From positions 1-10,360 of the forward strand of contig JAQUZZ010000026.1 in the NCBI GenBank assembly GCA_028691095.1: a stretch of DNA of 10,360 bases. Reading direction: 5' to 3'. The stretch comes from Alistipes sp. Its GTDB lineage: Bacteria > Bacteroidota > Bacteroidia > Bacteroidales > Rikenellaceae. Numbering within the stretch: the stretch's first letter is position 1; each line of letters starts with the position of its first letter. Positions 9,736 to 10,360 of the stretch are shown here, in pieces. A model generated the notes under the pieces. That model saw only the letters and a program-made list of their open reading frames with translations, made no database searches and had not been told where the DNA came from. The translations under genes were made by a program, and so were the position numbers.

Positions 9736-10149
9736 ATGGGTGCAAGAAAAAGCATAAGAGCCGAAAAATTAAAGGCCGAAAAGAAGCAGACGGCGATAGC
9801 CGTACTTCGCGACTGCCCGACCTCTCCGCTGAAAATGCGTATCGTTGCCGATATGATTCGCGGAATGGAGATCAATAAAGCACTGGGAACTTTGCGTTTC
9901 AGTAAAAAGGCAGCTTCGATCAAATTGGAAAAATTGTTGCGCTCGGCCATCGCGAACTGGGAGCAGAAAAACGAGGGTCAGCGTCTGGAAGATACCAAAC
10001 TGTGCGTTAAAGAGGTTTGCGTAGACGGAGGTAAGATGCTCAAACGGGTACAGCCCGCTCCGCAAGGACGTGCTCATCGCGTCCGCAAACGCTCGAACCA
10101 CGTGACGATCGTTGTCGATAAAATGATAGTTAAAGAAGATAAAAAGTAA
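9736..10149 (+). CDS. rplV: 50S ribosomal protein L22
   Basis: 137 residues, slightly long at both ends as usual in Bacteroidota. L22 spans the 50S subunit, and its beta-hairpin forms part of the exit-tunnel constriction where macrolides bind. Visible are the core helix segment [21 protein letters not shown], the [12 protein letters not shown] helix and the hairpin region [20 protein letters not shown], intact with no deletion of the kind linked to macrolide resistance. It starts 9 bases after rpsS, and rpsC begins 5 bases after its stop. Confidence 0.97.
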
Positions 10150-10154
10150 AGCAG

Positions 10155-10344
10155 ATGGGACAGAAAGTTAATCCAATAGCAAACCGACTTGGTATCATCC
10201 GCGGTTGGGATTCCAACTGGTATGGTGGAAAGGATTTCTCCAGCAAGCTTGTCGAGGATGCTAAAATCCGTAAGTATCTGAATGCCCGTCTGGCTAAGGC
10301 AAGCATTTCCAAAATTATCATTGAACGTACGCTGAAACTCGTTA
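10155..10344 (+). CDS. rpsC: 30S ribosomal protein S3, N-terminal part only
   Basis: The frame opens [20 protein letters not shown] and continues through [20 protein letters not shown] to LKLV at residue 63, the standard S3 N-terminus that precedes the KH domain. S3 lies at the mRNA entry site of the 30S subunit and contributes to mRNA helicase activity. It starts 5 bases after rplV. After residue 63 the frame reads KIGRA, which does not fit S3, where I expect a continuation like TVT leading into the KH domain. The change coincides exactly with an Illumina adapter match, so the true gene sequence stops at 10344 and the rest of the gene is missing. Confidence 0.95.
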
Positions 10345-10360
10345 AGATCGGAAGAGCGTC
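10345..10360 (+). other. Illumina adapter remnant at the contig end
   Basis: The last 16 bases are AGATCGGAAGAGCGTC, identical to the start of the TruSeq adapter read-through sequence that continues GTGTAGGGAAAGAG. The S3 reading departs from the family exactly here, and the preceding GTT A is what a GTT ACn (Val-Thr) continuation would give. This is therefore sequencing adapter, not genome. Confidence 0.93.

Follow-up and report, generated by a model that had tools for sequence, protein, structure and literature searches.

Illumina TruSeq adapter sequence at a contig end interrupting rpsC in a draft Alistipes sp. assembly

The last 16 bases (10345-10360) of the Alistipes sp. DNA analysed here (10,360 nucleotides, hereafter the window) are almost certainly a remnant of an Illumina TruSeq adapter, most probably left by read-through of a short fragment, with an untrimmed read becoming the last piece of the contig. 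An adapter at a contig end is very likely an ordinary and already documented artefact of assembly, and not a matter of biology. The window spans contig C143 in full, so position 10360 is a physical contig end and the boundary is that of the assembly itself. The assembly comprises 295 contigs and 1,674,035 bases (1.67 Mb), and is 69% complete with a listed contamination of 0.3%.

The 3' end of the window reads gctgaaactcgtta up to position 10344 and AGATCGGAAGAGCGTC from position 10345 onwards. The terminal bases, agatcggaagagcgtc (10345..10360, + strand), are identical at 16/16 positions to the start of the TruSeq universal-arm read-through, the arm reached by read-2 read-through and the source of these non-genomic letters. 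The exact core common to both adapter arms, AGATCGGAAGAG, is present in this tail and runs on into letters specific to the universal arm. The exact 13-mer AGATCGGAAGAGC has a single copy in the window, with 3 bases following it; with up to two mismatches allowed, this word was matched in 34 of 200 shuffles of the window, whereas the copy in the contig has 0 mismatches. With uniform bases, the chance of a given 16-mer lying at a given end is 4^-16, or about 3e-7 over 590 ends and two arms. The 16 bases translate as a false S3 tail, K(part)-I-G-R-A. They also supply the first residues of an antisense frame (10074..10358, - strand), which comes from the mechanical listing of open-ended ORFs, lies opposite rplV and rpsC and is not a gene.

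The 190 nt ahead of the adapter (10155..10344, + strand) are the 5' part of rpsC, corresponding to codons 1-63 together with the initial base of codon 64. The gene starts normally, immediately downstream from an intact rplV (L22; 9736..10149, + strand; PF00237, E 5.8e-34), and is identical at 176/190 nt (93%) to NZ_CP045651.1, the complete chromosome of Alistipes sp. dk3624, which was used as the relative for comparison. The TIGR01009 (rpsC_bact) model spans residues 1-65 with 64.3 bits, against a whole-protein cut-off of 114.5, as would be expected of a fragment; a Pfam search of the fragment gave no match at E 0.001. A search with the N-terminal part of S3 found matches in 57 of 61 genomes, including the genome to which C143 belongs. 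We fetched 29 loci from relatives, 27 of which could be read by means of a start motif that missed L026 and L035. At the place of position 10344, all 27 have an A, as does the window; at the place of 10345, all 27 have a C and the window has an A. The genomic DNA therefore ends at 10344, or at 10343 if the A is coincidental. Codon 64 encodes Thr in 27/27 relatives, and beyond the junction all 27 carry other, conserved sequence, which agrees with the 16-base tail at just 3-6 positions. The reading LVKIGRA, with K-I-G-R-A following residue 63, was found in none of the 27.

The remainder of S3 lies elsewhere in the same assembly. Its C-terminal domain is present as a single copy (124.7 bits) on contig C117, and its N-terminal part as a single copy on C143. 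The first base of C117 corresponds to rpsC codon 82, in frame, leaving 53 nt (rpsC nt 191-243 in the numbering of the relative) unassembled between the two contigs, both of which are collinear with the complete relative NZ_CP045651.1. With the rest of the protein on C117, nothing suggests a truncated or variant S3 in the organism, and on a plain reading of the sequences rpsC would be broken in the assembly only. Proper handling would be to cut C143 back to 10344 and to regard rpsC as a gene split over two contigs.

These results bear out, in every part that could be checked, a first-pass annotation made from the letters of the window. Its claims that the terminal 16 bases are the TruSeq adapter prefix and that the right boundary is an assembly artefact agree with the exact match, the presence of both arms at the ends of contigs in this assembly, the position of the adapter at the true end of C143 and the location of the rest of rpsC on C117. 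The interruption of rpsC was correctly placed where S3 conservation fails, with the A at 10344 conserved in 27/27 relatives and followed by C in all of them, against A here; the junction could be refined by identifying the arm as the universal one (read-2 read-through) and by noting that agreement with the relatives extends to base 10344. Relatives reading LVKIGRA, which that annotation had named as grounds for abandoning its view, were absent among the 27, all with Thr at 64, and its warning that a truncated or variant S3 should not be called here is upheld by the missing part on C117. Its suggestion that further contig ends might be affected was also confirmed, with five more found (C48, C88, C167, C243 and C278).

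In the 295 contigs, the exact 13-mer has four copies, with about 0.05 expected in 1.67 Mb for uniform bases, and all four point outwards from places no more than 11 bases from a contig end. Besides the copy in C143, these are at the start of C88 (L001 1-24; universal arm, 23/24), the start of C167 (L003 1-16; index arm, 16/16) and the end of C278 (L004 1501-1518; universal arm, 18/18). Both arms are thus represented at contig ends, the index arm in C167 and the universal arm in C88, C143 and C278. A 10-base search added the end of C48, the last 12 bases of which are the adapter core (L036 1501-1512; 12/12), and the start of C243 matches the universal arm at 14/15 positions (L149 1-14), the sole mismatch falling where the first A of the arm is expected. 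The known affected contigs therefore number six of 295 (C48, C88, C143, C167, C243 and C278), a count for which remnants of fewer than 10 bases were screened in part. The adapter at the start of C243 interrupts a gene carrying a PPDK_N domain, the remainder of which is on C277. The two pieces (L156, C243, 15-1892; L157, C277, 976-1749) hold codons 13-640 and 751-1008, respectively, of the 1008-codon frame of a relative (L155, G005), and the C277 portion stops two bases short of the contig end; by the length of that relative's gene, about 110 codons, or some 330 nt, are missing. A short unassembled gap thus lies behind both of the adapter ends that were traced to a partner contig (C143 and C243), of six ends known. 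In L155 of G005, the 1008-codon frame of the PPDK_N-domain gene is accompanied by a longer antisense open frame of 1185 codons.

Looser searches were less discriminating. A search of the assembly with two mismatches gave 58 matches, against 19 for the reversed control, and is too permissive to be used alone. It contained four one-mismatch matches, one starting at the third base of C243 and the others in C129, C156 and C199; the last three were dropped as adapter ends, being well inside their contigs. A candidate in C206 was likewise dropped as a chance match, lying 35 bases from the contig start with no arm. Five of the nine matches in the 10-base search were at contig ends (C48, C88, C143, C167 and C278) and four were internal (C171, C176, C208 and C237). 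The 8-mer AGATCGGA was matched 151 times in the assembly, about three times the roughly 51 expected for uniform bases. On the reverse strand, among the 8-mer matches listed, only those of C88 and C167 were within 100 bases of a contig start, and of the looser forward-strand matches checked (20 places in 20 contigs) none was at a contig end. The reversed word gave 0 matches for the 13-mer; reversal of the 8-mer, however, likewise left 0 where the forward word had 151, suggesting that the reversed sequence is scarce for an independent reason. The control is therefore weak, and the case rests on the position at contig ends and on the arm-specific letters.

We also searched for the 13-mer in 150 genomes, including that of C143 (G000), and found it in 20. 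The matches of the relatives were read at 28 loci and the ends of G000 were read separately. In 15 of the 150 genomes (G000 included), at least one of the matches read is no more than 200 bases from a contig end, and these end matches either fit one arm closely or are on contigs that end before the arms diverge. In five of the 20 matching genomes (G007, G033, G043, G068 and G070), the sole match is deep in a contig, at least 11,890 bases from the end to which it points, and continues in neither arm. Such single internal 13-mers would appear to be natural words, and the core alone would accordingly not constitute proof of an adapter. Copy number per genome reached 138 (G047). Six genomes (G047, G065, G009, G072, G024 and G063) have 10 to 138 copies each, and many of the copies listed for them sit 30-50 bases in from the start of a contig. 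Two of the six, G009 and G047, also belong to the four genomes (of 61) in which the N-terminal part of S3 had no match. One locus (L046, G041 C115, 136-168) carries the full index arm (33/33), 135 bases inside the contig and pointing inwards, as though assembly had incorporated an adapter there.

A real truncated, split or variant S3, reading K-I-G-R-A after residue 63, would be compatible with a frame that remains open through the 16 bases, but it is extremely improbable given that none of the 27 relatives reads in this way and all have Thr at 64, that the C-terminal part is present in frame from codon 82 on C117, and that the same letters recur at the ends or starts of unrelated contigs. A second alternative is that the letters arose by chance, in true genomic sequence that happens to close the contig. 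The exact 13-mer does occur naturally within contigs of relatives with no arm following it (five of 20 matching genomes), and the 8-mer exceeds its uniform-base expectation about threefold; nevertheless, with all four exact matches within 11 bases of ends and continuing in an arm, and with relatives agreeing at so few positions of the tail (3-6), we give coincidence next to no credence. That rpsC carries a real insertion, such as a mobile element, whose first 16 bases lie at the contig edge is barely conceivable: the adapter letters adjoin six unrelated stretches, the arm in C167 differs from the others, and an essential ribosomal gene would not be expected to carry an insertion, even if repeats are common break points of draft-genome contigs.

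A false pairing with C117 alongside a real adapter, the two S3 halves deriving from two organisms in the same bin, is very unlikely. In its initial 300 nt, C117 shares 243 positions (81%) with the relative, against 93% for the N-terminal part. Over longer stretches, however, the identities are alike (83-87% for the window and 86% for C117), the contigs are collinear with the relative, the two halves do not overlap and are each present as one copy in the assembly, and the listed contamination is low (0.3%). Under the preferred reading of an adapter remnant, a library fragment not long enough to fill the read would have been sequenced through into the adapter, the resulting read would have been trimmed incompletely or not at all, and thin coverage at a gap would have left it as the only extension open to the assembler. 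The position at contig ends, the presence of both arms and the short gap behind 2/2 traced ends (of six known) fit such read-through at a coverage gap.

At the left end of C143, no adapter is visible; this end cuts an AAA_14 ATPase-type gene (2-835, - strand). A porin of the Porin_O_P family (1059-2249, + strand) and a 162-residue frame with no Pfam or NCBIfam match (2496-2984, - strand) lie upstream of the ribosomal genes.

The significance of these observations is one of data hygiene only. If the contig is left untrimmed, gene calling would be expected to produce a partial S3 whose tail derives from the adapter, and rpsC serves as a phylogenetic marker. One genome in ten (15 of 150, that of C143 included) has the adapter core close to a contig end, which is reason to test unusual end residues of conserved proteins in such drafts for adapter before accepting them. 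Adapter-ended contigs in thin assemblies might mark short coverage gaps, not hidden overlaps, with the gene resuming tens to hundreds of bases further on in the same bin, a proposition for and against which we see the balance as even. If it is true, adapter ends could serve as bookmarks for pairing contigs by the gene order of a relative where overlap repair fails.

Adapter contamination at contig extremities in public microbial assemblies has been described by Moeller et al. (2024, BMC Genomics 25:1033; PMC11536531). That paper reports that 1110 of 15,657 assemblies among the MGnify species genomes were adapter-enriched (p below 0.01), and that trimming and reassembly raised N50 in 327 of the 1110; the shared 12-base core and the parts specific to each arm are also given there. 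Both 33-base arms appear together in 267 papers of those searched. Compared with the cases of Moeller et al., the present assembly has the same core and the same arm-specific continuations, the adapter reading forward where contigs end and in reverse complement where they begin. It differs from them in the low level of contamination (four exact 13-mers and two more ends in 295 contigs), in the shortness of the remnants (12 to 24 bases) and in that, at the two ends traced, the partner contig lies beyond a gap with no overlap, such that overlap-based stitching would not join the contigs. Relative to a bacterial rpsC in the S10 gene cluster, the 190 nt preceding the adapter are the 5' part and the start of C117 the 3' part; the break is in the assembly only, and no unusual feature was seen in the gene.
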